Source of the DNA: Bacteroidetes bacterium SB0662_bin_6
GTDB taxonomy: Bacteria > Bacteroidota > Rhodothermia > Rhodothermales > VXPQ01
Assembly: GCA_009839485.1 (NCBI GenBank)
Contig: VXPQ01000046.1
Location: forward strand, 62,001-126,000
DNA length: 64,000 nt
Reading direction: 5' to 3'
Numbering within the stretch: the first letter of the stretch is position 1; each line of letters begins with the position of its first letter. The notes under the pieces are model-generated. The model was not told where the DNA came from. It did not search any database and saw only the letters and a list, made by a program, of their open reading frames with translations. Of this stretch, positions 7,420 through 29,035 are shown piece after piece. The translations under genes were made by a program, and so were the position numbers.

Positions 7420-7480
7420 GGTGCCGGCTGTTGTCAAAAAGTGCGGGCAACAAGATCGTACATCTCACGGCGCATCGCAA

Positions 7481-7696: not shown

Positions 7697-7762
7697 TAAC
7701 TCTTGTGGGCGGCGTGACGCATATTGAGGCTTTGTTGAACATTTTCTCGCTTGTACGAACAT

Positions 7763-8653: not shown

Positions 8654-8697
8654 CGCGACCGGCTTTTGTTCAGAAGGCTGTAACAAAATATAGGCAC

Positions 8698-8840
8698 ATG
8701 GTCAAACTCGGTGTAATCACAGATGGCATCAGCAGGGATTTCGAACGCGCGCTCCAGGTAATGACGGACATCAAGCCCCAGATCGTGTCGCCTTCTCCGC
8801 ATTCTTGGACCCGTTCTTCGCCGGGGATAAGGCGGGCTGA
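8698..8840 (+). pseudogene. Truncated TIM-barrel sugar isomerase/epimerase remnant
   Basis: The first 24 codons, MVKLGVITDGISRDFERALQ and the next four, look like the start of a xylose-isomerase-like epimerase, in the spacing expected after the dehydrogenase. The frame then turns into low-information sequence. A second frame over the last 50 bases reads AFLDPFFAGDKAG then stop, possibly the original C-terminus. The pattern fits an internal deletion with frameshift. A small hairpin (8664-8670 with 8682-8688) lies just upstream. The C-terminal assignment is a guess. Confidence 0.5.
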
Positions 8841-8858
8841 TTTTCCTGGTTTTTCAGT

Positions 8859-10343
8859 TCAAAAGACATCCAGGATGCGATCCCCGACCGCCCAGACGCC
8901 CATGACAACCAGAATCAGAACGCATGTCACTAAAAAAACATCCCAGGCCCGCCCCGGCAGGATCCGCTTGTCGCAGGTGCGATGGCGAAAGGCAACAGCG
9001 ACAACGGCCACGATCGGAAGCATCATGCTCTGAAAAATCCCGGCCGCCAGGATCAGAAAGACCGGTCTGCGAATGATCAGCATGGACACCAAACCAATTA
9101 ACGGGAAAAGCCAACTGAACTGGCGCACCCACCAATCTTTGGTCTCGTCGGTTTTCGCACCCACGCCCGCAACGCGCAAGGCATCCGCGCAAACGCGAGC
9201 ATGTCCGGCTGGAGAGACAAATAAGGTGCTGTATAGCACTGCTATCGCACCCATTAGAAACAGCCAAACCCCTAACGTGCCGTATACCGGCTGATAGGTC
9301 TTTGCCAGAGTCGGGATCATTTGCTCGCCCACTGGATCGAGTCCTTGCGGGTGAAGCACTGAGGCCCCGAGCAGATAGAATGCAACCGTGCCGATGGTGA
9401 AAGCTGCAGCAGCGGCGAACGCATCCAGACGCACAACATTCAGCCAGCCACGCGCACGCTTGGCCCAGACATCCGAATCGTCACGCTTTCCGGTCCATTT
9501 CGCGTATCCTTTTTCAACGCAGAAGTATGGATATGCGATCAGGTCGGTTGCCGCCATACCTATGATGCCAAATGTTGCCAGAACGGCCGCAACCGGAGAT
9601 CTGGTAAGCCCCTCAACCACCGGTGGGATACGGAAACTCAGTCCCGATCCGATGTCAGCCCAGGATATTGCCCATTCGGTCTGTAACTGAAGTGCTGCCA
9701 GACAGAACAGGGTTGCTAGCGTGAACAAACCAACCAGGATCATGGCCATGCGCTCGATCAGACGGTAGCGTCCACGCACAAGCAGGAGCATCGTTAGCGC
9801 CGTTGCCAGGGTAGCCCAAATCACATCGTCCCAGGTAAATCCTGTCGGGCGCGACTCAAGCATACTATCCATCCCGGATTGAACTGCTGCAGCGTCCCAG
9901 CTATCCTGGGCTGCCAGCAGTTCATTGTAGTCTCCCGTGAGTGGCAGTGCTATTGCGGCACTCTGCCCGACACCATGGACAATGCCGCCCAACTGGATAA
10001 TGACCGCCACCATCATTATCAGCCAGAACCACATAACCAGATTCAATCTCATGATGCGTGGTCCGCGCAAGCCGGCCAGGAGGGCCATGGTTCCCTGCCC
10101 GGTCGAAATTGCATAGCGTGCCAGCTCGACCTGAATCGGCGTCTTTACCAGACAGCCGATGATAATCAGCCACAACAGCATGTAGCCAGCCAACGCACCT
10201 ACCTTGGTCGTACCGACAAGCTCGCCCGACCCCACCACACCTGCTGCAATCACGAGCCCCGGTCCGACAAATAGCAGTCGCGACCGCAATGTTTTGGGAG
10301 CCCAACGAACGTCTGAAGATTTATCGGGCCTTAGCTCTTTCAT
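8859..10343 (-). CDS. Nramp-superfamily membrane transporter, non-canonical
   Basis: A 494-residue polytopic inner-membrane protein with the Nramp/LeuT-type layout. TM1 begins FVGPGLVIAAGVVGSGELVG, and about 11 helices can be traced. The canonical metal-binding motif DPGN of TM1 is replaced by GSGE near residues 38-41. The TM6 motif MPHN is replaced by AATDL (about 264-268) in the segment FGIIGMAATDLIAYPYF. Canonical Mn/Fe transport is therefore unlikely; related divergent Nramp proteins carry other cargo or are uncharacterised. It lies at the downstream end of the minus-strand run of secreted-protein genes, with 221 bp between it and the lipoprotein gene, so operon membership is uncertain. 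Confidence 0.8.
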   Translation of the reverse strand: MKELRPDKSSDVRWAPKTLRSRLLFVGPGLVIAAGVVGSGELVGTTKVGALAGYMLLWLIIIGCLVKTPIQVELARYAISTGQGTMALLAGLRGPRIMRLNLVMWFWLIMMVAVIIQLGGIVHGVGQSAAIALPLTGDYNELLAAQDSWDAAAVQSGMDSMLESRPTGFTWDDVIWATLATALTMLLLVRGRYRLIERMAMILVGLFTLATLFCLAALQLQTEWAISWADIGSGLSFRIPPVVEGLTRSPVAAVLATFGIIGMAATDLIAYPYFCVEKGYAKWTGKRDDSDVWAKRARGWLNVVRLDAFAAAAAFTIGTVAFYLLGASVLHPQGLDPVGEQMIPTLAKTYQPVYGTLGVWLFLMGAIAVLYSTLFVSPAGHARVCADALRVAGVGAKTDETKDWWVRQFSWLFPLIGLVSMLIIRRPVFLILAAGIFQSMMLPIVAVVAVAFRHRTCDKRILPGRAWDVFLVTCVLILVVMGVWAVGDRILDVF

Positions 10344-10564
10344 TCTCTGCTCTTCTGTTTTTCAGTGTCGCTCAGTGGAAACACCTCCTCTCTGAGACAG
10401 CCCGCCTCCACTGGTTGTCCGCTTGAGCAGCTTGTGAAGGCAGAGCTCTCAAATGAATAAACCTTGAGATAAGGGCCTGAAATCAGGTGTGTTCCTCTCA
10501 TGTCTCCATCCCCGGATGTGGTTGACCGGTTCGCACATAAAGCTCCATAGACTGTGCCTGGACT

Positions 10565-11287
10565 CTACCTCGGATTCAGTGTTATCTGAAAGTCGTCATA
10601 CCTCGTCCCTCGTTCATATTTCTGCCTGATTCCGAAGTAGCCCGAAATCGGTTCAGTGATCGTGTCATCGACAAGGACAAGCTCATTGATGGTCCATCTC
10701 AGATTCGAACCCCTGATTTGGATTCGGTGACTGGCCCATTCCTTCTGAAATGCCGCCCCGGCGACAATAATCGTATCTCCCGCAATTCCCGATACATAGG
10801 CATCGGTGGTCGTTGAGTCGGTATCAGGAACCTGGGTCATGTATCCGAACTCCCAGCCCCGATCCCAGACGGGTTCGGTGGCGCCGAAGACGAACATGAT
10901 AGGATCATTGTCAGATCGGTATTGCATGAAACTGATATCGATGCTCTCTACGTCCTCCGGAACGGGTGTCTTCGCAAAAAGCACCGAGTTGTGGGATCGC
11001 CCACCCTGCTCCATGTAGCCTGAATCGGGGGGAATGACCCAGAATCCTTTCTTGGGATCGCGCAGGTCGAGCTCATCACTGTGCGTCCAGTTCAGTGGTA
11101 CATGACCGCCAGGCAGCACATAGCCTGTAAAACCAAGTCCTTCGGGTGGAGGTAGCTGGAGAACATTCTCGACATACTCACCCTGGGAATCGGCGCCAAA
11201 ACTATCCTGAAACAGAACGCTCTCGGCACTGCCTTGCCCACACCCGGACAGAAGCATCATAGTGCACACAATAAGTGTTGCCCTCAT
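10565..11287 (-). CDS. Secreted lipoprotein of unknown function
   Basis: 240 residues from the ATG at 11287. The N-terminus MRATLIVCTMMLLSGCGQG is a lipoprotein signal with lipobox LLSGC, so the mature protein should be anchored to a membrane, probably the outer one. The rest is beta-rich, with short motifs typical of jelly-roll/concanavalin-like folds (FQDSFG near the start; SGYFGIRQKYERGTRYDDFQITL at the end), which recall the DUF1080/3-keto-disaccharide hydrolase type of domain. No catalytic residues can be named. Its position in the sugar locus suggests carbohydrate binding or cleavage, which is inference. Confidence 0.6.
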   Translation of the reverse strand: MRATLIVCTMMLLSGCGQGSAESVLFQDSFGADSQGEYVENVLQLPPPEGLGFTGYVLPGGHVPLNWTHSDELDLRDPKKGFWVIPPDSGYMEQGGRSHNSVLFAKTPVPEDVESIDISFMQYRSDNDPIMFVFGATEPVWDRGWEFGYMTQVPDTDSTTTDAYVSGIAGDTIIVAGAAFQKEWASHRIQIRGSNLRWTINELVLVDDTITEPISGYFGIRQKYERGTRYDDFQITLNPR

Positions 11288-11425
11288 GTCACCCACCCTT
11301 TGTTGTTTAATGGTTTTGCGTTTCTGTAGCTACTGTCGCCCGTCGTCAACATTCCGGACGCCTCTGATGTTGTGCTCGGTCCCGGACTCACGGGTGCGCA
11401 GTCAGGTTACTGCAGGCGCCGAATC

Positions 11426-13087
11426 CTAGTCAAGCCCATCCTCCTGCAACCATTTCTCAAACGTGTTGGTGTGGATTTGAATGACTGCTTTCTCTCGCAG
11501 GTCCTCCAGCGCCATCGCGAGTGGAAGATGCTTGGTCAATTCGCCCACGATCACTTCGCGTCGTTCATCCAGATCCACCGTCTCTGAGGTCCGCCGAACG
11601 ACTTCAACGACGTACCAGTCGCCCCCGCCGGCGCCCAGAAGTATGGGGCGACCGAGAGGAATGGTACGCAGGTGATGCATCAGGCCCCCTCCGCTGGTGA
11701 TATCCGCAGCCTCGAATCTCAAAAATCCATCAAAGGCTTCCGCGTCAACGCCGGCGGAAATCCTCTCCTGAGCTTGTACGGCCTGCTCGTATGAAGTTAG
11801 GTGCACACTCCAGTAATCGGCCATGACCCTGGTTGTTTCTCCCATTCCGGCCTGTTCAAAAGCATTCCTGATCTGCTCCTCGGTAGGCTCAATCCCTTCA
11901 TGGTTTCGAAGTGCCCGCGCAGCGGCATTGGCCAGGTAGACCAATTGGTAGTAGCGAATCTCGTCCGCAACGAACGGTTCTCGATCCAGGCCCATTGCGA
12001 AACCTCGAGATGCCAGCACGTCGTTCCGGAGTGCCCGCCCCACGGAGGCTTCGGTGCTTTGGATGGCTTCCTGAAAGGGTAGCCCATCCAGCCATGCCAG
12101 GTAGTCTCGAAACAAGTACTGCCGGCGCTCGCCATCCATCGAGTACTCAAGGAGAATGGCGTCCTTGGACAAGCCTTCACTTACAACAGCCACTTCGGAC
12201 GACGTCACCGTTACCCGTTTGGACGGTTCGTCCGGTGCTACTGCATCATTCAGTGCCTCATGGACGGCATTTATCACCGGGGCATTGACCCGAACGTTCA
12301 GCGCTTCCATCTGTGTGCGGACGTAGCGGTCGCCCTCAATGATATAGCGTCTCCGACGCGTTTGAAATCGCAGATGCTCTTTTCGAAGTTGGTACTCATC
12401 CTCCGTGAGCAGCGGATCATAGAGGCGATTCTCAGCGCGAATGATGTGCCAGCCGATGCCGGAGCGTACGGGTGTGGAGACCGAGTCCAGGTCGAGCGAG
12501 AAAGCGGCTTCAGTGAACGCGTCGTCGCCGCCCCAATACCCAATCTCTCCAATCAGGCCGGCGGTGGAATCCTGTACACCCGTGTTTTCGATAGCCAATC
12601 TCAAAAAGTCCGCACCATTCTGCAGCTCTTCATAGGCAATCCGGGCGTCATCGAACGTCTTGAATAACAGGTGCCGCACGATCCGCGTTTCCTTGCTCTT
12701 TTTGAAGGCTTCCCGGAGCTCTTCGTCGGTGGGCTGGGGAAGCTGCTCCGTAAAGGTCACCTCCACATACCGGCTCCCCATTATGCGCTTGGTTTGTCGC
12801 TCCACATAGACGCGAACCTCCTCGGATTCACCGAGCCCCAACCGCTCTGCCTCAAGCCCCAGTAAATACGTTGATATCAGGTTGTCAAGATGCCGGTATC
12901 GATTCTCCCTCGTATCGTCGCTGCCAGTGCGGATGAGGTACTGGACGTAGGTCCCCTTGAATCGCTGTACCGAGATGGAGATTCCCTCGACTTCGGCGAC
13001 GATGCGATTGTCTATCCCGGCCTGGCCGAAGCAGAGTCCCGCAACGGCGCATGCAAACAAGACGTGAAGGATCGCCCTGCGGATCAT
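11426..13087 (-). CDS. Periplasmic parvulin-type peptidyl-prolyl isomerase (SurA/PpiC-like)
   Basis: A 553-residue secreted protein with signal peptide MIRRAILHVLFACAVAGLCFG. A helical SurA-like N-domain is followed by a parvulin domain at about residues 130-225, with the signature ADFLRLAIENTG, GEIGYWGGDDAFTEAAFSL and SGIGWHIIRAENR. A second, weaker half occupies the C-terminal 250 residues. Such proteins assist folding of outer-membrane or secreted proteins in the periplasm. It starts 12 bp after the stop of the giant T9SS protein gene, so it is probably co-transcribed and may serve as a dedicated chaperone for the receptor and surface proteins. Confidence 0.82.
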   Translation of the reverse strand: MIRRAILHVLFACAVAGLCFGQAGIDNRIVAEVEGISISVQRFKGTYVQYLIRTGSDDTRENRYRHLDNLISTYLLGLEAERLGLGESEEVRVYVERQTKRIMGSRYVEVTFTEQLPQPTDEELREAFKKSKETRIVRHLLFKTFDDARIAYEELQNGADFLRLAIENTGVQDSTAGLIGEIGYWGGDDAFTEAAFSLDLDSVSTPVRSGIGWHIIRAENRLYDPLLTEDEYQLRKEHLRFQTRRRRYIIEGDRYVRTQMEALNVRVNAPVINAVHEALNDAVAPDEPSKRVTVTSSEVAVVSEGLSKDAILLEYSMDGERRQYLFRDYLAWLDGLPFQEAIQSTEASVGRALRNDVLASRGFAMGLDREPFVADEIRYYQLVYLANAAARALRNHEGIEPTEEQIRNAFEQAGMGETTRVMADYWSVHLTSYEQAVQAQERISAGVDAEAFDGFLRFEAADITSGGGLMHHLRTIPLGRPILLGAGGGDWYVVEVVRRTSETVDLDERREVIVGELTKHLPLAMALEDLREKAVIQIHTNTFEKWLQEDGLD

Positions 13088-13099: not shown

Positions 13100-16000
13100 C
13101 TATTTTACTATTGAGAACTTCCCTGTCGTCTCGCCAATATCCGGTGCTTCGACATGATAGAAGTATGTACCGAACGCAATCTCCTGGCCACCGTCCGTCA
13201 AAAGATCCCAGAATAGAGCACCCTCCGTTGAGGACCCGAAATGCTCCAACGTCCGAATGAGCTCACCCCGCAGGTTGAAGATGCTGATTGTACACGTCTG
13301 GGGCAGATGGATGAATTGCACTCGTCGCTCACCTCGACCCGTGAGGACAGACCGCGGTTCGAAGGCGGAAGCGCCGACATATGGATTGGGGACGACGGCA
13401 ATCTTGTCCAACTCATCTACCGCTCTTTCAACATCAACTGATGCCGGTCTGATCGTGAAGTCGAAGTAGTCTCCCTCGTGATAGGACCGTCGCTGATGGA
13501 CATAGAATTGGTCGCCCGGCGAAGGCGGAACACTCTCACCATCTGGTTGGAACGTTACGGCAAATCGGACTCGCCTTGGATGTAAGAAGCCGGATGAAAA
13601 GTATACAGTAATGGCATCACCGGGGTCGTAGTCCCCGGATTTGTCTACATCTCGAACCATCAACCTACATGAGGCATCGGTAGAGAGAATCCTGCACGTG
13701 ATTGGGAGCTCGGCCCTGATGTAGCCTCCAGGAAAGGGTCCGATACTTTCAGGTTGGTCAGTCCATTCCAACAAAAAGTCGTACGGAGAGGCTGTGAACT
13801 CATTACGTGAGGGTTCAATGGTTGCGACCCAGTTGGTCGAGTAGCCGTCTACCTCCCCGGGATCGAGCGAGTACTCGTCGGTATTGCCGGCCTTCGATTT
13901 CCAACCGGACCTGTCGAGATCAATCTCAATGTCGTGATTGACGATCTCGACGGTGAAGCCATCGACGATGCGTGTGGGTTCGAGTTGCTCTGTACTTTTC
14001 TCCTCCAGTATCTCTCCGCTGGTCAGATCCTCCAGCTTGTAACCAGAGGTCTTGTACATCACCGGATTGGAGGCGGGCGTCGTGACAGACGTGAATGACA
14101 GGCGATACGCATGATCCAACTTGGCGCGATCTGAATCGAGCAATCTGACAGAGATGCTCCCGGTCCCCAGAGGATCATCAAATTTTTCCGACAACGTCCC
14201 CGATGGACTCGAGAGATCCTCGTTCGCCGAGCCCGCTACCTGGCCAATTGGGAGTGTTTGCGGCGTCACGATCGCGGCGTTCTTGGACGCCTCTATAACT
14301 TTGCCCGTGCGGTCCAGCCGGAAATTGAACACGTTCTCCTGCGGGTCGACTGTCGGCGCCACCACACCGGCTTCGGGATCCAGGTCCGCGTGGTCGTAGG
14401 CCACCAACGCATAGTAGTACGTCATTCCATTCTTGACGTCTTTGTCGACGTAGGTGAACTCGAGCCCTGTATCGGAGCCAAGAAAGTATTTCAACTCACC
14501 GAATTGGGCATCGACCGTCCCGATTATCCCGTTATCCAGATCCCACTGTGCAATCGGTTTTCTATAGACGGGCGTTCCGAAGACGTTCGTCACCAGTAAC
14601 GCATCAGACAGGTTTTCGTCGGTGCCTTTGTAAAGCTTGAATCCTTCGAAATCGAATCTTTGCGAGAACCTGTCGAAACTCTTCACGGGCACCGCATCCC
14701 AGCTGAGATGGACTTGCCCGTCGCCCGGAATCGCTGTCAGTGTTGTGGAAAAAGGTGGCGTAGCGAACTGATAGTCGGCTTTGTATATCCGCTGCGCCCG
14801 CCTTCGATTACTCAGGAAGTCATCCTGATCGACTCCGAACATCCATGCGAGCGAAAAGAAATCTGTTCTATTTGGCCCAAGCGTGACAGGACCGGAGGCA
14901 AAGACGAGAAGTGGTTCGATCCCGGCGTCTTCCACAAACTGAGGGTCTGTTCCGAGCGGGAATTGTGCGACATTCACAATCCGATTCCACATCCAGGAAT
15001 CGTGAATCATGTTTCCCCCGGCGCTATAGAATGAACGATTCCCCAGGTCAAAACCGGTCAGACCAATCTGGTCGGACTCGTCCACATCCAGGAGATCAAA
15101 GTTCGGCTCACATCCTTGCCCTATGACGCAATCGGGACGGCTGTTGCCCTCTCCGTTGTCCGGTCCCGGATAGTCCAGATCGTTCGGCCCAACGCCGTCC
15201 AGGCCAACGTCGTTGAAGAGCAATTCTCCGACGTCGTAAACGCCGTTTCCGTTATCGTCCTGAAGGCCGACCCAGTCCAGGTTCTCGTCACCGGTCCACC
15301 AGACGCCCCGTTGATAGGGTAACCTTTGTTCGAGCACCTCGTCGATCGTGGAGGCGCCATCCTGACCGTAGAAGCGAATGAAGTTATCGACATTGAAATT
15401 CGCCTGGACGTAGCTCTTTATCGCGTCCTGGCCTTCGATTAGCGTTCCCGGTCCGGTAAACCTCGACTCGTCAGTGATCCCGTCCTCGTCGTTATCCAGG
15501 CCGTCTGTAGAACGCACCGGGCTCTCGAGGAATGCTTCGCCGGTGTAACCCAATGGATAGGTAACGCCGTTTATCAGTCCGATTCCATTCCTGTCCCACC
15601 CGAATGAGACGTCAAGCTGGGGGTCAAAGGCGGCCGATTCGTCTCCCTCCGGGGGCATGTAGAAATTGATCATGTTGTTGAAATACAACTTCTCATGATT
15701 CGTCTGCCCTACGTTGTTGATCGCGAAGATGAGAAACATGATATCCTCGGCAATCGGATTTGCCCACTGCAGCGCACGAACCTGCACCTGAAGGCCCATC
15801 CCACCGCGTGTCCTGTCGGCCGGATCCGGGTAGTAGACACCAAACTGGCTAAAGGGAAGGCCAGTCTGCTCGTCGATCATGTACTCGCGTTGCTGCCAGT
15901 CGTCCATGATGTAGTAGACTTCCCAATCGGAGTGGAAGACATTCCTTCCAAACAGCCCGTTCCAGGACCCGTACCATCCCGGATCGTCTAAATTGTCGAG

Positions 16001-16588
16001 CCTGTCGGGCCAGAACTCCGGCCATGACCGAGGGTCGGTACTCGTTGCCGGTTCCGGTTTGAGTTGGCCCGTGAACAGATCAACGCGCTCGGGATTGTGG
16101 AACCCGGGAAGCGGCAACCAGCCCCATATATTCCCATACGGACCAACCTCGGTGCCATATCCGCGGTACCTGATGACCAGGGGGTGTAGCACCGTGTCGG
16201 GCCTGCCGCCATAGAAATCTCGCAGCATCGGCGTGCTGGTCCGGTCTCCGGGAACCTCACCAATAATGAAGACAGCGAGCCCATCCGTGTGCTTGTTAAA
16301 CTCAGTTGGCCAGGCGCCACGAACGGAGCTCCCCGCAACTCCCCAGTTCACAATGCTCGACTTTATCAGATTTCCGAGCATGAACCCTTGAGCGTTCCAG
16401 TTCTCGTCTCCGTGGTACTCTGGCGGCACGGGACTCTGGCCGTACACCTGCTGAAGAGGCATGACTATCAGGGCCAGGAGACACAGCGTGCTACATCCAC
16501 AGATGCCCGACTCGATAAGCACCCGGACACGTTTTTTGCCGGATCGATAAACGCTCGATGTCATGTGATGGATTCTCATCTTCGACAT
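13100..16588 (-). CDS. Giant T9SS-sorted extracellular protein
   Basis: 1162 residues, with an N-terminal hydrophobic segment (about 31-50, ending VYGQ) as export signal. The body has fibronectin-III-like stretches (PGDGQVHLSWDAVPVKSFDR near 660) and Asp/Gly-rich calcium-type loops (DNDEDGITDES, DDNGNGVYDVGE, DVDKSGDYDPGD). The last 90 residues hold a sorting-type beta domain (VVPNPYVGAS, TISIFNLRGELIRTL, AFGTYFYHVEAP). It should be exported by the type IX system and attached or released at the surface. No catalytic domain is recognised. It abuts the PorV/PorQ gene (one base between stop and start), so the two are translationally close partners. Confidence 0.78.
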   Translation of the reverse strand: MSKMRIHHMTSSVYRSGKKRVRVLIESGICGCSTLCLLALIVMPLQQVYGQSPVPPEYHGDENWNAQGFMLGNLIKSSIVNWGVAGSSVRGAWPTEFNKHTDGLAVFIIGEVPGDRTSTPMLRDFYGGRPDTVLHPLVIRYRGYGTEVGPYGNIWGWLPLPGFHNPERVDLFTGQLKPEPATSTDPRSWPEFWPDRLDNLDDPGWYGSWNGLFGRNVFHSDWEVYYIMDDWQQREYMIDEQTGLPFSQFGVYYPDPADRTRGGMGLQVQVRALQWANPIAEDIMFLIFAINNVGQTNHEKLYFNNMINFYMPPEGDESAAFDPQLDVSFGWDRNGIGLINGVTYPLGYTGEAFLESPVRSTDGLDNDEDGITDESRFTGPGTLIEGQDAIKSYVQANFNVDNFIRFYGQDGASTIDEVLEQRLPYQRGVWWTGDENLDWVGLQDDNGNGVYDVGELLFNDVGLDGVGPNDLDYPGPDNGEGNSRPDCVIGQGCEPNFDLLDVDESDQIGLTGFDLGNRSFYSAGGNMIHDSWMWNRIVNVAQFPLGTDPQFVEDAGIEPLLVFASGPVTLGPNRTDFFSLAWMFGVDQDDFLSNRRRAQRIYKADYQFATPPFSTTLTAIPGDGQVHLSWDAVPVKSFDRFSQRFDFEGFKLYKGTDENLSDALLVTNVFGTPVYRKPIAQWDLDNGIIGTVDAQFGELKYFLGSDTGLEFTYVDKDVKNGMTYYYALVAYDHADLDPEAGVVAPTVDPQENVFNFRLDRTGKVIEASKNAAIVTPQTLPIGQVAGSANEDLSSPSGTLSEKFDDPLGTGSISVRLLDSDRAKLDHAYRLSFTSVTTPASNPVMYKTSGYKLEDLTSGEILEEKSTEQLEPTRIVDGFTVEIVNHDIEIDLDRSGWKSKAGNTDEYSLDPGEVDGYSTNWVATIEPSRNEFTASPYDFLLEWTDQPESIGPFPGGYIRAELPITCRILSTDASCRLMVRDVDKSGDYDPGDAITVYFSSGFLHPRRVRFAVTFQPDGESVPPSPGDQFYVHQRRSYHEGDYFDFTIRPASVDVERAVDELDKIAVVPNPYVGASAFEPRSVLTGRGERRVQFIHLPQTCTISIFNLRGELIRTLEHFGSSTEGALFWDLLTDGGQEIAFGTYFYHVEAPDIGETTGKFSIVK

Positions 16589-16589
16589 G

Positions 16590-17633
16590 CTAGAAGTGTA
16601 AGCGGAAGTCGATCATTCGAACGTCCCCAAGTCGGTCGAAGGGTACATACGCAAAGTCGAAGGCGACCCGGAGACCTCTCAAGCGAATGTCGAGCCCGGC
16701 ACCGTAGGTCAGATGGCTATCGACGTCGGTCAATCCGAGATCCTTGTAACCCATACGGGCCTCGAGCAAGATCGTTTTTAGTTCATAACTTGCAATGCCT
16801 CCGACGTCGGCATTGAGATCGTTGTCATTGGTCTGGTGCGACTCTGCCATCAGAGAGACCTTGTACTGGCCCGCCCGCACTGCCGGAATCATGACGCCAA
16901 ACTTGAAGGTCAGCGGGAGACTCCATGCGTCCATTTTTATGCGGGCTGGTACAGCATCCTGGTTGAAGTTTGTAGTGGGATCGATATCGATGTACTCCTC
17001 GGAATTAATACCGTCCATCTGCATCTTCCCTCCGAAATTCTGAATGGAGGCGCCTAACTGGATTCCGTTCAGATAATTGGTTTCGAGAACGAATCCTATG
17101 TCGAACGCGACGGCGGACGCTTTCATATCGCGAATGTTCTGTCTCACCCCTTTTGCCGAACCACCGAGGTAGAAATAGTCGGTGAGTTGCTGCGCATAGC
17201 TTAGCCCTATCGAGATATCCATCGAAGAGAACGTTTCACCGGTCCCTTCCGGCATATCGACCGTTCGAACCAGCTGATCCCCATAGTCGAGTTTAACCAC
17301 GCTCAGGCCCACGGCTCCGGATCCGGTGACGGGGACCACAGCGCCCAGACCGGCGAAATTGACGTCAACAAACCACCTGTGATTCGAGAACATCGCCGAT
17401 CCGCGCTGTCCAGAGGACGGGTGGGGTCGTGCAATACCCGCCGGATTCCAAAACAGTCCGTCCGCCCCGGTAGCCACCGCAGTGAAGGCATGACCTACGG
17501 CGGTGGCACGTGCTCCCACACCAAGGGTCAGAAACGTCGCGGCCGCCGTGCCCTTGCGACTCTGTCCATCAGCGGTCTGTGTGCTTCCGAAGACCAGCAG
17601 GAGAAGAAGCACGTGTGCCATTGGGTTTTTCAT
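16590..17633 (-). CDS. PorV/PorQ family outer-membrane protein (UPF0164)
   Basis: 347 residues with a cleavable signal (MKNPMAHVLLLLLVFGSTQTADGQ) and a FadL-like beta-barrel pattern: GVGARATAVGHAFTAVATGADGLFWNPAGIA is the hallmark N-terminal block of PorV/PorQ proteins. The C-terminus AFDFAYVPFDRLGDVRMIDFRLHF is a typical barrel end. Known PorV acts as shuttle and scaffold for T9SS cargo at the outer membrane. A copy embedded between a TonB receptor and a large T9SS protein is probably dedicated to that cargo. The ATG at 17633 is preferred over a GTG at 17648. Confidence 0.87.
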   Translation of the reverse strand: MKNPMAHVLLLLLVFGSTQTADGQSRKGTAAATFLTLGVGARATAVGHAFTAVATGADGLFWNPAGIARPHPSSGQRGSAMFSNHRWFVDVNFAGLGAVVPVTGSGAVGLSVVKLDYGDQLVRTVDMPEGTGETFSSMDISIGLSYAQQLTDYFYLGGSAKGVRQNIRDMKASAVAFDIGFVLETNYLNGIQLGASIQNFGGKMQMDGINSEEYIDIDPTTNFNQDAVPARIKMDAWSLPLTFKFGVMIPAVRAGQYKVSLMAESHQTNDNDLNADVGGIASYELKTILLEARMGYKDLGLTDVDSHLTYGAGLDIRLRGLRVAFDFAYVPFDRLGDVRMIDFRLHF

Positions 17634-17693
17634 AGGTCGTCTGCACACAAGGTGTCAATCTTTTTCACGATGATGGTGCCGTTCCTCGCCCTG

Positions 17694-20477
17694 CTAAAGC
17701 CTCGTGCGGACGCCGAACCTGACTTGGCGAGGTGGGCCATAGAACGCAGCGTTGTAGAACCAGTCTTCAAGCGTATTCACGCCCCCAATTTCACTGCCGC
17801 TCCGCTCAAACAGAAGGCGGTTGTAGGATGTGGTCGGCGAACCCGTATCCGCATAGACAAAATCGATGATTTCCTGATCGAACAAGTTTTCGACTTGAAC
17901 GAAGAACTGGAAGTTGCTGGGCAGAAAGCCGGGAGCCCAATACATCCGTACGTCACTGATGATCTGGGCCGGGCGATTCACGTTATTCTCTACGAAGGAT
18001 CTCACAAAATCTCGTGCGGACGTGTACGGTGCTCCTGCCCGAAGCCGGTTGATCAGGGATACAGAGAACCGGTCGGACGGATTGTAGGTCAACTGGAGGT
18101 TCAGAACGTGCCTCCGGTCCCAATCGAGTCTGTACATGCGCCGGATGGGATCGAGGCCGGAGAGGAACCGGCCATATGCCTGGTCCGGATCTGAAGCTGT
18201 GCCGTCAGCGAACTGAAGTGTGTAGTCGATATCCCAGGCGACACCACCTCTCCGCCGTTGGAAGACCGAGAGTGTCAGGCCGAAAATGGTTCCGTAGTCG
18301 ATGTTAGTCCAGTGAATGGCGGGTGTGACATACTTGCGATCCGTCGTGAATTCCTGTCCGGTCAGGTTTCGTATGTCCTTTGAGAAAATGGTCAACTCGA
18401 CGCCCAGGTCACTGGTCAAGGCCTGCTGCAGGCCGACCTCAAATGCGAGCGTCCTTTCAGGATTGATGCCCGGGTTACCATACGTGTTCGACCCGGCCGT
18501 CGGATCGACCTCAAACTCGGGATTTGTATAAAGGAGGCTCATTGCCGGTATCTGGAAAAAGAGACCTGCCGAGAATCTCACGACACCCGTCGCGGATATG
18601 GGGAACGCAACACCTAATCGAGGACTCAACTGGAATCGGGGTTCAGTGTTTACCCTGTTCGACGTCGAATCGCCGGGTTCGGGAGTCGAAAGGTCGGCGA
18701 TCATCTCACTCGGGGCTTGACTCCAGTCGATCGGTTGAACGTAGTCGGCATCAAAATAGTCTGCTCTCAAACCGGCATTGATTATGAGGTTTTCGAATTC
18801 CATCTTGTCCTGGACGTAGCCTGACAACTCCGTTGGCGTCGCACGTAGCCGCTCATCGTTGAACTTGTTGGGTGACACTATCGGCTGCCACTTCGTGCGA
18901 GAGGAAATTTCAATGCCATAAAGGCGGTTGTCCAAACGATGGAATCGGCCCTGAAAGCCAACCTTCATCTGGTGGACTCTCGTCAACTGATTCGTATAGT
19001 CCGCTCGGAACGTGTGAGAAGCGGTAAGTGCATCCCATGTAGAGAGGTCGTTACCTCCGACTGAAAAGGCATTCTGACCGACAAGTTGATTATGCTCAGG
19101 CGATACGTATCGCTGGTCGAGTATGCCGGTGGACTCAAAGTCGTCAGGAATCTCATACAGGTACCTGTCGGACTTATCATGTAGAAAGCTATACGAAAAT
19201 GAAGAAAAGGCGGTATTAGAGTGTAAAATCCGAGCCGTCAGGATGTGTGTCTGATTCAGTTCATACGACTTGTTTTGCCCCGTTGGTACGTACTTGTCGC
19301 CGTGGTCGATATCGCGGGCCTCACCCAGCGACAAAAAGGCGTTATAGTCGAGTTTGACGTTTTGAGATACCTGCCAGATCAGATTGGGGTTGGCAAAGAG
19401 CCGCTCACTTTCCGACGCAACGAAGTCGCCCGTTCCGGAGGATTCGATGACCCATTCGTCGGCAGGAAATGAGACATCTATTGCCGAGGAGTCACTCGGT
19501 GAGAACCAGTCGCGTCCAATCACGTGCGACGACTGCTTTCGGTACCTTCCCGTCAGGCGAAATCCCAAGCGATCCCGCATAAGTGGTCCACCAATGTCGA
19601 ACTGGTAGTTCCGCCAGTTTGGTAGATTTGCCGCCTCGGTATACGGAACCGTAACGGTTTCAAAATCGGCGACCGAGTACGTATCCTGATCATTTGCTAT
19701 TCGATTCAGGTACGGCACCTCCCGGCTGCTCAGGTAGGTTCCAACGTCAGCTTGCACAGACGCACTCCAATTTCGCGGCGCAGTTTTTGTAACTATGTTG
19801 ACGACACCTGACAAGGCCTGACCGTATTCGGCGTTAAAAACCCCGCTGATGACCTCAAGATTTGCCACCGCATTCTCCTGGACCTCGAAAGCTGCAGTAT
19901 TCGAGAAGACGTTAGTGATCGGAACACCGTTGACAAGGTAGGAGACTTCCGCGGCCCTGCCACCGCGGAAATGGCCGTCGACGACGCCTGCCTGAAGGTT
20001 GATTGCGTCTTCGAGACCTGCCAAAGGGAGGGCTTCAAGTTGCTGTTCATCGACAACCGACGTGGTGGTTGTACGGCCCATTTCGACAATAGGCCGTTCC
20101 GCTATGATCACGACCTCCTCGCCCTCTATCAAGGCAATGCGCATTGTAACGTCAATTCGAGTGGTCTGATCGACCCTGACCTGCACGTTTTCGACCCTGG
20201 TTTCAGAAAACCCGATAAACCTGAATGACACGGTATACCTATCGGGATCAAGTTTGATTATCTGGTAGAAGCCATCCTCATCCGTGACGGCACCGCGTAA
20301 CGGGCTGGTTCCTTCAACGATCACCTGGACGCCGGGAAGAGGAGAACCCTCGTCATCCACCACCGTCCCTGCAATCTTGCCAGTCTCACCGGCAATCGCT
20401 TCAGCCGTGAGCCCCAGCGACACGACGGCTATTAACAGGCTCCGACAGAGTAGTTGCACCCGATACCTCGTTTTCAT
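17694..20477 (-). CDS. TonB-dependent outer-membrane receptor with carboxypeptidase-regulatory-like N-domain
   Basis: 927 residues. A signal peptide is followed by a CarboxypepD_reg-like Ig domain (GKIAGTVVDDEGSPLPGVQVIVEG, about 31-115), a plug domain (about 125-240, including SGVFNAEYGQALSGVVNIVTK) and a 22-strand-type barrel to the C-terminal aromatic end (PRQVRFGVRTRL). It should import a ligand across the outer membrane using TonB energy. There is no adjacent SusD lipoprotein; instead a PorV/PorQ gene and a giant T9SS protein follow. Ligand is unknown, with oligosaccharide most likely from context. It starts 11 bp after the DUF5060 remnant. Confidence 0.9.
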   Translation of the reverse strand: MKTRYRVQLLCRSLLIAVVSLGLTAEAIAGETGKIAGTVVDDEGSPLPGVQVIVEGTSPLRGAVTDEDGFYQIIKLDPDRYTVSFRFIGFSETRVENVQVRVDQTTRIDVTMRIALIEGEEVVIIAERPIVEMGRTTTTSVVDEQQLEALPLAGLEDAINLQAGVVDGHFRGGRAAEVSYLVNGVPITNVFSNTAAFEVQENAVANLEVISGVFNAEYGQALSGVVNIVTKTAPRNWSASVQADVGTYLSSREVPYLNRIANDQDTYSVADFETVTVPYTEAANLPNWRNYQFDIGGPLMRDRLGFRLTGRYRKQSSHVIGRDWFSPSDSSAIDVSFPADEWVIESSGTGDFVASESERLFANPNLIWQVSQNVKLDYNAFLSLGEARDIDHGDKYVPTGQNKSYELNQTHILTARILHSNTAFSSFSYSFLHDKSDRYLYEIPDDFESTGILDQRYVSPEHNQLVGQNAFSVGGNDLSTWDALTASHTFRADYTNQLTRVHQMKVGFQGRFHRLDNRLYGIEISSRTKWQPIVSPNKFNDERLRATPTELSGYVQDKMEFENLIINAGLRADYFDADYVQPIDWSQAPSEMIADLSTPEPGDSTSNRVNTEPRFQLSPRLGVAFPISATGVVRFSAGLFFQIPAMSLLYTNPEFEVDPTAGSNTYGNPGINPERTLAFEVGLQQALTSDLGVELTIFSKDIRNLTGQEFTTDRKYVTPAIHWTNIDYGTIFGLTLSVFQRRRGGVAWDIDYTLQFADGTASDPDQAYGRFLSGLDPIRRMYRLDWDRRHVLNLQLTYNPSDRFSVSLINRLRAGAPYTSARDFVRSFVENNVNRPAQIISDVRMYWAPGFLPSNFQFFVQVENLFDQEIIDFVYADTGSPTTSYNRLLFERSGSEIGGVNTLEDWFYNAAFYGPPRQVRFGVRTRL

Positions 20478-20488
20478 AGATCTCGTAT

Positions 20489-20845
20489 CTATTCGTCCCG
20501 TGGCATGGTCGAAAAGGTCACGTTTAGCCGATAGTCCAGGAACGGATTGGGATCCGACGACTCCGTCACATACGACCCGTCGAAGGTTACGGTGACGGGG
20601 TGCTGGAGTTTGAGTTCACCATCGAACGACCAGGATCGCATTTCCGCTTCGCCGCCAAGCTGGAATTCCTGCCAGGATCCTGGACCTCTCTTTGGGTTAC
20701 CAGCAGCGGATTCCGGCCGTCGTAGCCATACAGTATCCGAGCCCGAGCCGACCAGAACGAAATCGGTAACGACTCCCTGACCGGCCGCGTGGGTCCAGTG
20801 TAATGAACCCGGGGTAACCACAGATAAGATGCGAATACCCGTCAT
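20489..20845 (-). pseudogene. Short gene ending in a truncated DUF5060 domain
   Basis: 118 codons from the ATG at 20845. The last third (GELKLQHPVTVTFDGSYVTE, then SSDPNPFLDYRLNVTF) closely parallels the DUF5060 start of the hydrolase at 32110-34029 (GELKTWHRVTLSFAGPETSE, then AAEPNPFTDYRLLVTF). The frame stops right after it, with no catalytic barrel. The first part (TPGSLHWTHAAGQGVVTDFVLVG) is Fn3-like in look. I read this as the 5' remnant of a DUF5060 glycoside hydrolase; a short binding protein that is still expressed cannot be excluded, because the frame is intact and sits 11 bp from the receptor gene. Confidence 0.55.
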
Positions 20846-20870
20846 GGCCCGGTCCTCGATCAAGTATCAC

Positions 20871-20900
20871 GAGCGCGGCGGGGATTGCCCCGCCACGCTC
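20871..20900 (-). terminator. Strong GC hairpin between surface-protein gene and DUF5060 remnant
   Basis: A 13-bp stem with one mismatch (20871-20883 with 20888-20900) and a 4-base loop, GGCGGGG-ATTG-CCCCGCC at its core. No T tract follows on the minus strand, so it may be a transcript-stabilising or partial-termination hairpin that sets higher expression of the upstream surface protein. Confidence 0.6.
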
Positions 20901-20926
20901 GGAACAGATATCCTCCTTCCCCTACT

Positions 20927-22486
20927 TCATTTCATCAACACTGCCTTTGCAGTCACAACCTTTCCGGTGGCCATCTGCTCGAAAGCGAAGAAGTACATCC
21001 CGCTTGCACGGCCTTCCATGCTTACAGGCACTGACACGGAACCGGGTATCTGGTTTGCGAACGAGCGCTGCTCAACGAGCTGTCCAAGTACATTGAAGAC
21101 GCGCATCTGATAATCACCGCTTCGGTCCAGGGTGACGCGCATCGTTGTCGTCGGATTGAACGGATTGGGATATAGACTCTCGATAGCAAACCCATCAGGG
21201 ATCTCGGGAGCGTCATCCGCGTCGACAGTGAGCATCCCGGTGACGTGGATGGTTGCCGAAACGCTCCTTAGAGCATCGCCTCCACCTCCGCCTTGCGTGT
21301 ATGGAGTGGCCGTGATCATGTACGTCCCTGCCTCTAAAATAAAAGCCGCGGCCGCCGTACCATCCAACGGATGGTAATCTCCACTTACGTCTCCCGCGAT
21401 GGCGTAGGGCGGCGCCGTCTCTGTCTTACTCCAATCTTCATCACCCTCACGCGTGAAGACCACGCTGCCTACGTCCACGAATGCAGCCTGAATGTTAATG
21501 TTTGACGTTTGCGCGGACAGGTCGAGGGTATCGCCATCGGCAATTTCCCCGATGGGCATGTCGGTGTCCGCATTTATCAGAACGAAACCAGTGAAAGCGA
21601 TGTTTATCTCAGCCGTGATGCCCTCATTACCGGCACCAGGAGGGCTGAGGGACCAAGGAGTCGCCTTGAGGTTCATGACACCGGATTCGGTGTGATGCGG
21701 ATCTGAAAAGATGTCGAAGGGCGCACCCCCTTCCACTTTCTCATAAGGCATTGTCCCAGTCCCATCATCGTTCTCCACATCCACCCCCGCACCCGTAAGC
21801 ACATAGAATATGCTAGCGATGTTAGCGCCTTCTGCACGGATATACAGGCTGTCTGGCACGTCGCCCTCTTCGTCCCCCCGGTAGAGATTCATGCCATCCT
21901 CGAGCGAGAAGAGATCTAGCTCATCCCTGTCTTCTCCTGCTCCATCAGACAGTATCCAGTCGGTGATGACCAGGGTCGTATCCAGCCCGAATGTGGCGGC
22001 TGTACCCGTCGCTGTGAAGGACACGATAAGCGAGTCCCCCGGTACCTGGGTGTCCGGGTCCCCTACAGGGTCGGGATGGTAATAGGGGGTGGCTGACACC
22101 ATGTAGGCCGCCGGATCGAGATTCCCGGGGAAAAAGTCACCGGTGCTGGGGTTATCGCCCCATAGAGCGTATGGAGCAACTGATTCACCTCTGCGATAGT
22201 AATCCCAAACCCCATCGGTGGCCAAGTGGAAGTGAACCCGGCGAATAGAAAAATCGCCCGAGTCGGCAACCGCCTCAATATTGATGTTCCGGCTGGCCAG
22301 AGAGTCCAGCAGAAGTTCGTACCCGTCTTCGAGAACGGCTATCGGGGTATCCGTATCCGCATCTATAAGGTTAAACGAGGTGATCGACGGTACCTGCTGA
22401 GCATATAGGCTCAAACTCATGACAGGCAGGAGCACTATAATGAAAAGGGCCCGACCCAATAGCCGGGGAATCGTAGCGTTTTTCAT
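20927..22486 (-). CDS. T9SS-sorted surface protein with repeated beta domains
   Basis: 519 residues with signal peptide (ending MSLSLYAQ) and two copies of a domain opening with a shared pattern: ITSFNLIDADTDTPIAVLEDG (about 34) and FTGFVLINADTDMPIGEIADG (about 300). Each continues to VSATPYYH or ITATPYTQ, resembling malectin/Ig-type carbohydrate-associated domains. The C-terminal 85 residues are a type A T9SS sorting domain (ESLYPNPFNPTTTMRVTLD, MRVFNVLGQLVEQ, ASGMYFFAFEQ). It probably binds carbohydrate at the cell surface (inference). It is the first gene of the minus-strand run and lies 141 bp from operator site 1. Confidence 0.8.
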   Translation of the reverse strand: MKNATIPRLLGRALFIIVLLPVMSLSLYAQQVPSITSFNLIDADTDTPIAVLEDGYELLLDSLASRNINIEAVADSGDFSIRRVHFHLATDGVWDYYRRGESVAPYALWGDNPSTGDFFPGNLDPAAYMVSATPYYHPDPVGDPDTQVPGDSLIVSFTATGTAATFGLDTTLVITDWILSDGAGEDRDELDLFSLEDGMNLYRGDEEGDVPDSLYIRAEGANIASIFYVLTGAGVDVENDDGTGTMPYEKVEGGAPFDIFSDPHHTESGVMNLKATPWSLSPPGAGNEGITAEINIAFTGFVLINADTDMPIGEIADGDTLDLSAQTSNINIQAAFVDVGSVVFTREGDEDWSKTETAPPYAIAGDVSGDYHPLDGTAAAAFILEAGTYMITATPYTQGGGGGDALRSVSATIHVTGMLTVDADDAPEIPDGFAIESLYPNPFNPTTTMRVTLDRSGDYQMRVFNVLGQLVEQRSFANQIPGSVSVPVSMEGRASGMYFFAFEQMATGKVVTAKAVLMK

Positions 22487-23024: not shown

Positions 23025-23570
23025 ATGATAACCAGATCCGAAGTCAACAAGGCCCGGAAACGAGCCGCCGACATGATCGAAGAAGCCGGTATCATCATCA
23101 CCGAGAAGGAAAAACAGGATATCGACGTCGCAGATTTTGGATTAGGCCAGCTTGAAGTTGAGGGTGTCCAGATCCTGACCTACTTCAGTACCGATCGCAT
23201 CAGTGCCAAAGTGCTGGTCCTCTTTCCCAATCAGACTGAGCCGGAACACTGGCACCCTCCCGTCAGCGATGATCCCGGCAAGGAGGAGATCGTTCGTTCG
23301 ATATCCGGAAACCTGAGATTCTATGTCCCGGGCGACGACAATATGACGGTGGGATTTATCCCGGCCGGAAAGGATGATTACTACACCATGCGCCACGAAG
23401 TGGTCTTGCGGCCTGGTGAGCAGATTCACCTGCCACCAGGGACGAAACACTGGTTTCAGGCGGGACCGGAGGGTTGCGTGCTGTACTCGTTCTCAACGTG
23501 TGTTCGGGACGGCCTCGATGGATTCACCGATCCAAACATCATTCGGTCCACCAGAATCGTGGAAGACTAA
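23025..23570 (+). CDS. Cupin-fold sugar isomerase, D-lyxose ketol-isomerase-like (paralogue 1)
   Basis: 181 residues, probably cytosolic. The single cupin domain carries the expected divalent-metal ligands: His75 and His77 in TEPEHWHPP, Glu88 in GKEEIV, and His142 in GTKHWFQAG. The surrounding blocks (FYVPG, PAGKDDYYTMRHEVVLRPGEQI) match the D-lyxose isomerase family (DUF1498), which interconverts D-lyxose/D-xylulose or D-mannose/D-fructose. Substrate here is unproven. A paralogue lies at 27540-28076 in the same locus. It precedes a TIM-barrel epimerase gene on the same strand. Its TAA stop doubles as the left target-site copy of the 59-bp inverted-repeat element that follows. Confidence 0.8.
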   Translation: MITRSEVNKARKRAADMIEEAGIIITEKEKQDIDVADFGLGQLEVEGVQILTYFSTDRISAKVLVLFPNQTEPEHWHPPVSDDPGKEEIVRSISGNLRFYVPGDDNMTVGFIPAGKDDYYTMRHEVVLRPGEQIHLPPGTKHWFQAGPEGCVLYSFSTCVRDGLDGFTDPNIIRSTRIVED

Positions 23571-23629
23571 GACCCTGTTTGGTAAGATGGTTCCGCGTTC
23601 GCCTGAAGACCTACTTGCCAAACAGGCTC
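23571..23629. mobile_element. 59-bp MITE-like inverted-repeat element with 3-bp target duplication
   Basis: 16-bp terminal inverted repeats match at 14 of 16 positions (GACCCTGTTTGGTAAG at 23571-23586; complement of GAGCCTGTTTGGCAAG at 23614-23629). TAA flanks both sides (23568-23570, 23630-23632). Ends beginning GAGCCTGTTT with TNA duplications recall the IS1031 group of the IS5 family; that link is from memory. The transcript would form a strong hairpin between the isomerase and epimerase genes. Confidence 0.7.
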
Positions 23630-23655
23630 TAAAGACCACACAGATATAGACCATT

Positions 23656-24618
23656 ATGAAACTCAGCATCATTACAGCGTTCCTCGGTCGAACGCAGGAC
23701 AGGTTCTCCGAGTACCAACAGCCTACATCTGTTCGCGAACGACTGGACCTCGTAACCCAGATCAAGGGTGTCGACGGCATTGAGATCGTCTACCCTTACG
23801 AAACCGGGGACCCCGTGGAAACCAAGTCCTGGATGGACGAGCGCGGTCTGAACTTCGCGGCGATCAATGCCAACATCAAGAAGGAACCGCGGGTCGTACC
23901 CGGGGCGTTGTCGCGGCCTGACCCGGAAATAAGAAGGAGCGCGATCGAGATAATCAAGGGCGCCAAGGATTATGCAAAAAAGGTTGGCGCTCCCCATGTG
24001 ACGTGTTGCCCGCTTTCCGACGGGTACGACAATCTGTTTCAGGTCAACTACGCCAAGGCGTGGCGATACATGATCGAAACCGTTGGAGAAGCAGCCGACT
24101 ACCTGCCTGAAATCCCTCTCTTCATCGAGTACAAGTTCTCTGAAACGAGGGTACATTGTCATTTGTCAACGTGTGCGAAGACGTTGCTGTTGCTAAAAGA
24201 GGTTGGTAACCCAAGTGTCGGGGTAACCATCGACTTCGGCCATGCAATGTATGCGGCGGAAAACCCGGCGCAGAGTATTGCTCTTTGCGTAGAATCCGGC
24301 ATCGACTACTATTTGCACACGAACGACAACGACAACCGATTTGATTGGGACCTGGTGGGCGCAACACGGAATTTTCTTCATTACGTAGAATTTCTGTTCT
24401 ATGCGATGGAATTCGGGTACGACAAGTACTTCACAACCGATGCTTCGCCGCGAGTCTTCGATATGCTTCGGTTCTTTAACAGCCATTCGGACATCAGCCT
24501 GGGGATCTGGCGACTGGTTCAGGATATTGATCGAGCCAAGTACCTTCGTTTGATGGAGGAGGAGAACGCCGAAGAACTAATGGATCTGGTGAACCGGGAG
24601 ATCTACCGGGTGACGTGA
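23656..24618 (+). CDS. Xylose-isomerase-like TIM-barrel sugar isomerase/epimerase (paralogue 1)
   Basis: 320 residues with the AP-endonuclease-2/xylose-isomerase-like barrel. The start MKLSIITAFLGRTQDRF is typical. Metal-ligand strands are visible as LFIEYKFSE (Glu), VTIDFGHAMYA (Asp, His) and YYLHTNDNDNRFDWD (Asp). Such enzymes interconvert keto-sugars or sugar acids. The sequence resembles members found next to rhamnose and lyxose isomerase genes, but the substrate is not readable. It follows the cupin isomerase by 85 bp, with the MITE-like element between them, so the two are probably co-expressed. Confidence 0.85.
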   Translation: MKLSIITAFLGRTQDRFSEYQQPTSVRERLDLVTQIKGVDGIEIVYPYETGDPVETKSWMDERGLNFAAINANIKKEPRVVPGALSRPDPEIRRSAIEIIKGAKDYAKKVGAPHVTCCPLSDGYDNLFQVNYAKAWRYMIETVGEAADYLPEIPLFIEYKFSETRVHCHLSTCAKTLLLLKEVGNPSVGVTIDFGHAMYAAENPAQSIALCVESGIDYYLHTNDNDNRFDWDLVGATRNFLHYVEFLFYAMEFGYDKYFTTDASPRVFDMLRFFNSHSDISLGIWRLVQDIDRAKYLRLMEEENAEELMDLVNREIYRVT

Positions 24619-28982: not shown

Positions 28983-29018
28983 CTGTTTCTCTAGCTGGAC
29001 TATAACTTTCGCAACCGA

Positions 29019-29035
29019 TGTATACAATGTACACA
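29019..29035 (+). promoter_or_regulatory. Putative operator site 3
   Basis: TGTATACAATGTACACA, a near-exact match to the shared 17-bp pattern. It is centred about 45 bp upstream of the epimerase ATG at 28982, where a bound protein would overlap or closely flank the promoter. This placement supports repression. Confidence 0.68.

Follow-up and report, generated by a model that had tools for sequence, protein, structure and literature searches.

The window, a stretch of 64,000 nucleotides of contig VXPQ01000046.1 from Bacteroidetes bacterium SB0662_bin_6, carries on its minus strand a run of genes for envelope proteins (Table 1). A TonB-dependent transporter (TBDT), an outer-membrane barrel of the PorV/PorQ family, a giant partner protein and a parvulin are encoded one after another with intergenic gaps of 45, 1 and 12 nt in turn, and a secreted protein with a T9SS tail is encoded upstream. 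An earlier note on this DNA had placed a tight four-gene run within 13100-22486; the spacing holds, but the parvulin gene (11426-13087) lies outside that interval. There is no SusD gene in the TBDT/PorV/giant/parvulin run, as the note had observed. A scan for promoters and terminators gave a signal no better than chance.

Table 1. Genes and sequence features of the run, with the basis of each assignment
Feature	Position	Strand	Basis
Secreted protein, T9SS type A tail, 519 aa	20927..22486	-	PF18962, TIGR04183
Non-SusC TonB-dependent transporter (TBDT), 927 aa	17694..20477	-	CarboxypepD_reg, Plug, OMP_b-brl_3
EEVVII, TonB-box-like stretch of TBDT, residues 120-125	20103..20120	-	Position and general character
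Plug domain of TBDT, residues 136-225	19803..20072	-	Pfam Plug, alignments
PorV/PorQ-family outer-membrane barrel, 352 aa	16590..17648	-	NF033709
Giant partner protein, 1162 aa	13100..16588	-	Translation, AlphaFold model
Giant C-terminal tail, about residues 1063-1162, VVPNPYV ... GKFSIVK	13103..13402	-	Alignment of relatives
SurA/parvulin-like periplasmic protein, 553 aa	11426..13087	-	PF00639

The transporter comprises a carboxypeptidase-like N-terminal domain, a plug and a barrel, matched in Pfam by CarboxypepD_reg (72 bits), Plug (28 bits) and OMP_b-brl_3 (46 bits). Its AlphaFold model (pLDDT 89.8) matches solved TBDT folds at E 1e-31, the strands not being counted exactly; the closest are Cir, PirA, PfeA and BtuB, and XusA is also matched. 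A stretch resembling a TonB box, EEVVII, lies between the N-terminal domain and the plug; it was recognised both in the window and among aligned relatives. Because just 21/66 receptors fitted a crude motif pattern, the element was assigned by its position and general character. The Plug and barrel domains, the fold matches and this TonB-box-like stretch, recognised by inspection, identify the protein as a TonB-dependent transporter. Within the plug, the motif AGVVDGHFRGGRxxEVxYLV is well conserved in alignments of the module receptors.

The earlier description of this receptor as SusC-like has to be abandoned. The protein scores 59.3 bits with the SusC model TIGR04056, against a cut-off of 368.25, and a scan with curated models found no TIGR04057 signature in it, whereas a SusC of the same genome (L043), used as positive control, reaches 822.6 bits with TIGR04056 and carries the TIGR04057 signature. 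A SusC that has lost its SusD is thus ruled out, and the missing SusD is to be expected because the receptor belongs to another family.

The barrel is a member of the PorV/PorQ family NF033709 (139.6 bits, cut-off 90) which scores under the cut-offs of the PorV, PorQ and PorV2 models, with 50.8 bits against a cut-off of 250 for PorV proper (NF033710). Its best solved relative is PorV (6h3i_F, E = 0.002). The true PorV of the genome scores 298.6 bits and belongs to a separate true PorU-PorV pair (L040), and SprA is also encoded in the genome (1878 bits).

The giant consists of an N-terminal domain of about 550 residues, a series of beta-sandwich beads and a C-terminal T9SS-type tail (AlphaFold pLDDT 83.9, pTM 0.72). 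It has no Pfam matches, including to SusD (PF07980), and fold searches matched only Fn3-type structures and PorZ. No sugar-binding domain was detectable in it by Pfam scan or fold search, and a SusD-like fold or a known binding domain is unsupported by these searches. The tail scores under the cut-offs of the PF18962 and TIGR04183 models and most resembles that of PorU, the match being weak (E = 0.06). Its motifs are nevertheless conserved, VPNPY being found in 73/80 giants of relatives and a final lysine in all 80, and the tails of the ten paralogous partners in the genome can be aligned. A lipobox is not general among the giants (5/80 by a crude pattern). Of the reading of this gene product as a 1162-residue T9SS protein, the length stands; the tail appears to be a divergent domain of T9SS type, and the giant is probably exported by the T9SS.

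Two further proteins accompany these three. The 519-residue upstream protein has a recognisable T9SS tail at residues 438-506 (PF18962, 27.8 bits, cut-off 27; TIGR04183, 29.3 bits, cut-off 23). A T9SS-tailed protein is encoded directly 5' of the TBDT in 44/53 related loci. No homology was detected between the window's protein and its counterparts outside the tail, so that it cannot be counted as a homologue of those of the carbohydrate-binding module (CBM) type; it belongs to the set by position only. The parvulin has a PPIC-type rotamase domain (PF00639 Rotamase, 34.1 bits, cut-off 21.7). It had been considered part of the module, but only 23/65 loci have a parvulin in the 2.5 kb downstream of the giant, which makes it common yet not general and rules it out as a core part.

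The TBDT, giant and PorV-type barrel, by contrast, recur together. Ten paralogous modules containing all three are encoded in this genome, and across them the three proteins yield concordant distance matrices (r 0.80-0.90, a level reached in 0/10000 permutations); on this comparison of sequences the three have diverged together. Among 80 related loci drawn from several FCB phyla, the gene directly upstream of the giant is the TBDT in 65/66 (median gap 9 nt) and the one directly downstream is the PorV in 68/72 (median gap 11 nt), so that the barrel is co-encoded with its own putative T9SS substrate, as in known shuttle pairs. In 40 further regions all three were present in 40/40, while TBDT and PorV occurred together in none of 40 control regions. 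The grouping of the trio is, by these counts, more than chance. Of the conserved order foreseen in the earlier note, this part is not unique to the genome and the parvulin part does not extend to the family. The window itself has the order TBDT-PorV-giant, unlike all close relatives read (L142-L151). The same order turned up twice elsewhere, in separate regions from other genomes (L175 and L183), which excludes an assembly quirk and marks it as a genuine variant. In mirror-tree comparisons by giant domain, the tail correlates with PorV no better than with TBDT, and the attempt to read contacts from differences between parts of the giant was dropped.

The surroundings of the module point to carbohydrates. 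Genes for carbohydrate use were present in 31/40 module regions versus 3/40 controls (90 versus 4 genes, p = 1.3e-10), and absent from 9/40. Sugar ABC importers, LacI regulators, GH3, GH16, GH94, GH130 and symporters recur, and module subfamilies sit in different clusters, with GH130 and an ABC sugar importer, with a GH94 phosphorylase, or with GH16/GH3 and a sodium/solute symporter. Mapped on the tree of giants, the linked enzyme type changes 5 times, compared with 23.2 after shuffling; as far as gene neighbourhoods can tell, enzyme type tracks giant subfamily. The sugar context of the module family is well supported, and the cargo may be an oligosaccharide. The window's own neighbourhood shows weak carbohydrate signs alone: isomerase-like genes, an MFS transporter and a regulator.

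In Bacteroidota, SusCD is taken as the defining mark of polysaccharide-utilisation loci. In genomes from outside the window's class a giant is seldom accompanied by a SusD, the two being nearly exclusive; this complementarity follows taxonomic families, and it fails within that class, which has both. The present genome has one SusD (PF07980), on another contig. None was found in the 80 related loci with a model built from one sequence and of low sensitivity. A survey of paddy-soil genomes found little susCD in carbohydrate clusters from Ignavibacteriales and none in Kapabacteria (PMC10576277).

These lines of evidence are most consistent, with a probability of about 0.58, with a glycan-uptake module equivalent to SusCD whose surface partner is sent out by the T9SS and has a PorV-type barrel of its own as shuttle or anchor. 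The window locus would be one of ten copies, doing the SusCD job without SusC or SusD. The non-SusC TBDT would provide the energised channel. Directed by its C-terminal tail, the giant would cross the outer membrane by way of SprA, the type IX translocon, and would then be taken over by the co-encoded PorV-family barrel, proposed as its dedicated shuttle and, probably, its lasting anchor. Against lasting anchorage, PorV of Flavobacterium is believed to be reused once its cargo has been delivered, and not to serve as an anchor. The giant would remain on the surface in contact with the receptor, as capture partner or lid. An auxiliary role in binding glycans at the surface would fall to the upstream T9SS-tailed protein, and the parvulin would assist folding in the periplasm, while the cargo would be an oligosaccharide, module subfamilies sitting with clusters for particular glycans. 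Several findings count against this reading: no sugar-binding domain was detected in the giant by Pfam scan or fold search, its tail matches T9SS domains only weakly, 9/40 module regions show no genes for carbohydrate use and the window's surroundings give weak signs of it, and the complementarity with SusD follows taxonomic families and fails in the window's class. The earlier proposal of a new capture machine, in which a PorV-delivered T9SS protein stands in for SusD, accordingly gains from trio conservation, co-divergence, sugar linkage, clustering on the giant tree and, outside the window's class, near-complementarity with SusD; its SusC receptor and its parvulin as a core part do not survive.

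The giant could instead be a PorV-anchored scaffold for glycan capture, resembling an SGBP, SusE/F or an adhesin, beside a self-sufficient transporter and forming no lid. The bead-on-string layout with Fn3-type domains would suit an extended scaffold, and the transporter folds like Cir, BtuB and other self-sufficient receptors. This is nonetheless unlikely, as an accessory binder would not need to be paired strictly one to one with the transporter or to diverge along with it, and the accessory slot is already taken by the upstream T9SS-tailed protein, which bears a CBM in 6/10 cases scanned. Improbable, too, is a different cargo for the window's subfamily (peptides, cofactors or metals), the sugar linkage being a property of other subfamilies only. 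Such a cargo would fit the finding of no glycoside hydrolase close to the window's module and of an Nramp metal transporter downstream, as it would the subfamilies without carbohydrate neighbours and the short-partner modules (L036, L037) which adjoin UnbV_ASPIC and TPR genes; yet LacI regulators or GH3 are frequent next to the giants most closely related to the window's.

It is more doubtful still that the TBDT serves export, TonB energy being used to release or assemble the giant as an adhesin or coat protein. Myxococcus offers a precedent, as it needs the TBDT Oar to secrete the protease PopC (PMC6434023), and receptor, giant and barrel are always co-encoded. For that task, however, the genome already has a T9SS translocon, the sugar importers, glycoside phosphorylases and LacI regulators nearby speak for import, and enzyme type goes with giant subfamily. 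Plain co-transcription of three envelope proteins in one regulon with no shared machine is very hard to sustain: unrelated envelope proteins are common within operons, and the parvulin and upstream T9SS protein do differ from locus to locus, but the trio is kept over several phyla and ten paralogues with little partner exchange while its other neighbours change, the pattern of obligate partners.

A number of parallels can be drawn with known systems. SusCD/RagAB (TIGR04056 and PF07980) likewise joins a channel energised by TonB to a surface partner encoded beside it, sits in carbohydrate-use clusters and occurs in many paralogues per genome. The module differs in that its receptor is not SusC, its partner is not SusD by sequence or fold and has a T9SS-type tail in place of a general lipobox, and these two are joined by a PorV-type barrel. 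Closer in receptor type are BtuB-BtuG, for vitamin B12, and XusA-XusB, for a siderophore, of Bacteroides; BtuG is a non-SusD surface lid of BtuB (PMC10404256). Both pair a non-SusC TBDT with a non-SusD lid partner, as may the module, but that partner is a surface lipoprotein and not a T9SS-tailed giant, the cargo is a small molecule and there is no PorV.

Dedicated shuttles for T9SS substrates (PMC12618676) and surface anchoring by PorP-like barrels (PMC9143113) are both known. In SprB-SprF and PorP-PG1035 (T9SS type B), the gene of a substrate is accompanied by that of a dedicated outer-membrane barrel which serves to secrete and anchor it; these cases concern adhesins and gliding, whereas the module has a PorV/PorQ-family barrel and includes a TBDT. 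By this analogy the barrel may bind or anchor the giant. The PorU-PorV attachment complex also places a PorV-family barrel beside a T9SS-tailed surface protein, and it is the PorU tail that the giant's most resembles; the giant, however, has no sortase domain. The levan-type utilisome (PMC7618045, PMC11658791) is likewise a multi-part surface assembly for oligosaccharide import with a surface glycan-binding protein. Its subunits are lipoproteins around a SusCD core and its hydrolase lies within the complex, while in the module delivery would be by the T9SS and the enzymes are mostly separate neighbours.

The module is widespread and apparently undescribed. The trio was not found described in the open-access full texts searched, and its novelty is therefore provisional. 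Tentatively, it could represent an undescribed class of capture complex, in which a non-SusC TonB transporter is closed by a T9SS-delivered giant on its own PorV-type anchor, and which would be the main route of glycan uptake, with subfamilies matched to glycans, in several FCB lineages largely without SusCD (Ignavibacteria, probably others). The module would fit a gap in the SusCD-poor Ignavibacteriales and Kapabacteria, namely the entry of oligosaccharides across the outer membrane. Many sugar-eating Bacteroidota and their relatives seem to use it where gut Bacteroides use SusC/SusD. If this is true, annotators could recognise loci for glycan uptake in those FCB lineages in which SusCD does not work as a marker, and the role of type IX secretion would widen from the release of enzymes and adhesins to the building of importers.

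The receptor, barrel, giant and parvulin genes of the window's module are separated by intergenic gaps of only 45, 1 and 12 nt (see table). An earlier note had described the receptor as SusC-like, which is not borne out. On TIGR04056, whose cut-off is 368 bits, the receptor scores 59 bits and the receptors of eight other modules score 56-79 bits, whilst the SusC of the same genome (locus L043), a positive control, reaches 823 bits and carries the signature motif. That note's parvulin does exist, albeit outside the interval 13100-22486 to which it was assigned.

Genes of the window's module in order of transcription
Feature	Coordinates	Strand	Order
Secreted 519-aa protein, T9SS type A tail	22486-20927	-	first
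DUF5060-like ORF, 124 aa	20863-20489	-	second
TonB-dependent transporter (TBDT), 927 aa	20477-17694	-	third
PorV/PorQ-family barrel, 352 aa	17648-16590	-	fourth
Giant, 1162 aa	16588-13100	-	fifth
SurA/parvulin-like protein, 553 aa	13087-11426	-	sixth

The receptor model (pLDDT 89.8) has a classical TBDT fold closest to Cir, PirA, PfeA and BtuB, and also matches XusA, a structure solved with the surface lipoprotein XusB. The giant is modelled (pLDDT 83.9) as an N-terminal domain of ~550 residues followed by a series of beta-sandwich beads, with the tail at the end. In the PDB this predicted model is matched by bead-type proteins and PorZ; SusD is absent from these matches. The N-terminal half of the giant is among its strongly conserved regions, DESDQIGLT being one of the motifs there, and its tail weakly resembles that of PorU (E = 0.06). 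The barrel lies above the PorV/PorQ family cut-off and below those of PorV, PorQ and PorV2, and SprA is encoded in the genome. A handy reference pair within this genome is found at locus L040, where the true T9SS sortase PorU (3050-7072, 962 bits) adjoins a true PorV (7122-8321, 299 bits). Over 36 aa the 124-aa ORF is 58% identical to the beginning of a DUF5060 protein at 32110-34029 (+); it may be either the remnant of a gene or a small stray protein. Downstream of the parvulin lies a lipoprotein-like 243-aa protein (10565-11296, -) with no match in Pfam or NCBIfam, and a secreted 913-aa protein at 24716-27457 (+) has chitobiase C-terminal-like, CotH kinase, lamin-tail and T9SS tail domains.

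A profile built from five giants retrieved at least 487 relatives from public genomes, the best 80 of which formed the neighbourhood set; record labels among these 80 include Rhodothermales, Balneolales, Ignavibacteria, Calditrichota, Neomarinimicrobiota, KSB1, WOR-3, Eisenbacteria and Kryptonia. The last residue is lysine in every one of the 80 giants. Where flanking DNA suffices, a transporter lies directly upstream of the giant in 65/66 loci and a barrel directly downstream in 68/72, at median gaps of 9 and 11 nt, respectively. Another 40 regions, taken from genomes of the phylum to which the window belongs, each contain all three genes as well; transporter and barrel occur together in 0/40 control regions. 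The order transporter-giant-barrel is found in 37/40 regions, and the window's own, transporter-barrel-giant, in two, L175 (genome G037) and L183 (G021). The window's order is a variant, since four same-genus genomes have the usual one. L175 and L183 are independent cases, and gene order can flip whilst content stays. Directly upstream of the transporter, 44 of 53 loci encode a second T9SS-tailed protein, and six of ten such proteins scanned contain CBM9-like or CBM4_9 domains.

Within the window's genome, searches with barrel, giant and receptor all converge on the same loci. Read individually, and including the C18 barrel, these give ten modules, each with a receptor, a T9SS-tailed partner and a PorV-type barrel; the same ten places are the genome's top-scoring receptor matches. 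The partner is a giant of 1100-1300 aa in five modules and a shorter protein of 660-815 aa in the other five. Across the ten modules the three proteins give closely matching distance matrices (r 0.88, 0.90 and 0.80; 0/10000 permutations each), which shows that each module has been duplicated, and has diverged, as one unit. In a short-partner subgroup (L036, L037 and L033) the module is followed by FG-GAP/UnbV_ASPIC proteins, not sugar genes, with TPR proteins also following in L036 and L037; the cargo of this subgroup possibly differs from sugar. At L035 the product of the gene after the module (10385-12589) has multihaem-cytochrome-like and TPR domains, and L042 has a tandem pair of PorV-family barrels (7301-9378) without receptor or giant.

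Neighbours of the 80 loci were clustered and recurrent groups annotated by exemplar. They include sugar-binding lipoproteins, MalF/MalG-type ABC permeases, sodium/solute symporters, the enzymes GH3, GH94, GH16, GH130 and GH2, and LacI-type regulators recognised from sequence. In a separate comparison of 40 module and 40 control regions of ~19 kb from one genome set, at least one carbohydrate-use gene was present in 31/40 versus 3/40 (Fisher p = 1.3e-10), with 90 such genes in total versus 4; the families were picked from the 80-locus set, so that this measures recurrence at new places, and the two sets may share a few genomes. When the linked enzyme type (GH130, GH94 or GH16/GH3) is mapped on a tree of 120 giants, it requires 5 changes versus 23.2 for shuffled labels (0/200 as low as 5), GH130 linkage being a single change. 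Genome G048 has two copies, one GH130/ABC-linked (L152) and one GH16/GH3-linked (L191), so the pattern reflects more than species history alone. The clade of the window's giant has LacI and GH3 neighbours, and an MFS transporter lies near the window's module. Also nearby are a D-lyxose-isomerase-like cupin and two xylose-isomerase-like TIM-barrel proteins (23025-24618, +; 28089-29117, -), and a 393-aa regulator (29191-30372, -) combining GntR, FCD and IclR effector domains unusually in one chain.

In the window's phylum, giants occur in 37/80 genomes and SusD in 39/80. Outside the window's class, two of the 19 giant-bearing genomes (of 60) have one SusD each; SusD occurs in 17 of the 41 without giants, reaching at least 25 copies. 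Inside the class, most genomes have both. This is the pattern expected of functional replacement, though it tracks the boundaries of families and, taken alone, is not strong evidence. According to one survey, carbohydrate clusters of Ignavibacteriales seldom contain susCD and Kapabacteria lack it (PMC10576277). For Melioribacter roseus, the passages of the genome paper considered here report a single sus operon and no alternative of this kind (PMC3534657). A full-text search of an open-access library found no description of the trio.

The best-supported reading is that the module is a SusCD-equivalent import machine. The proposed likeness lies in the mode of working; by both of the proteins that define SusCD, the module falls outside that class. 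The giant would be exported through the T9SS, and the co-encoded PorV-type barrel would take it over and probably retain it; there is precedent for co-encoded T9SS substrates with dedicated PorP/SprF shuttles (PMC12618676), for PorP-like barrels as anchors (PMC9143113) and, in BtuG on BtuB, for a non-SusD lid (PMC10404256). We infer that receptor and giant make contact at the cell surface, where the two would jointly capture oligosaccharide as cargo.
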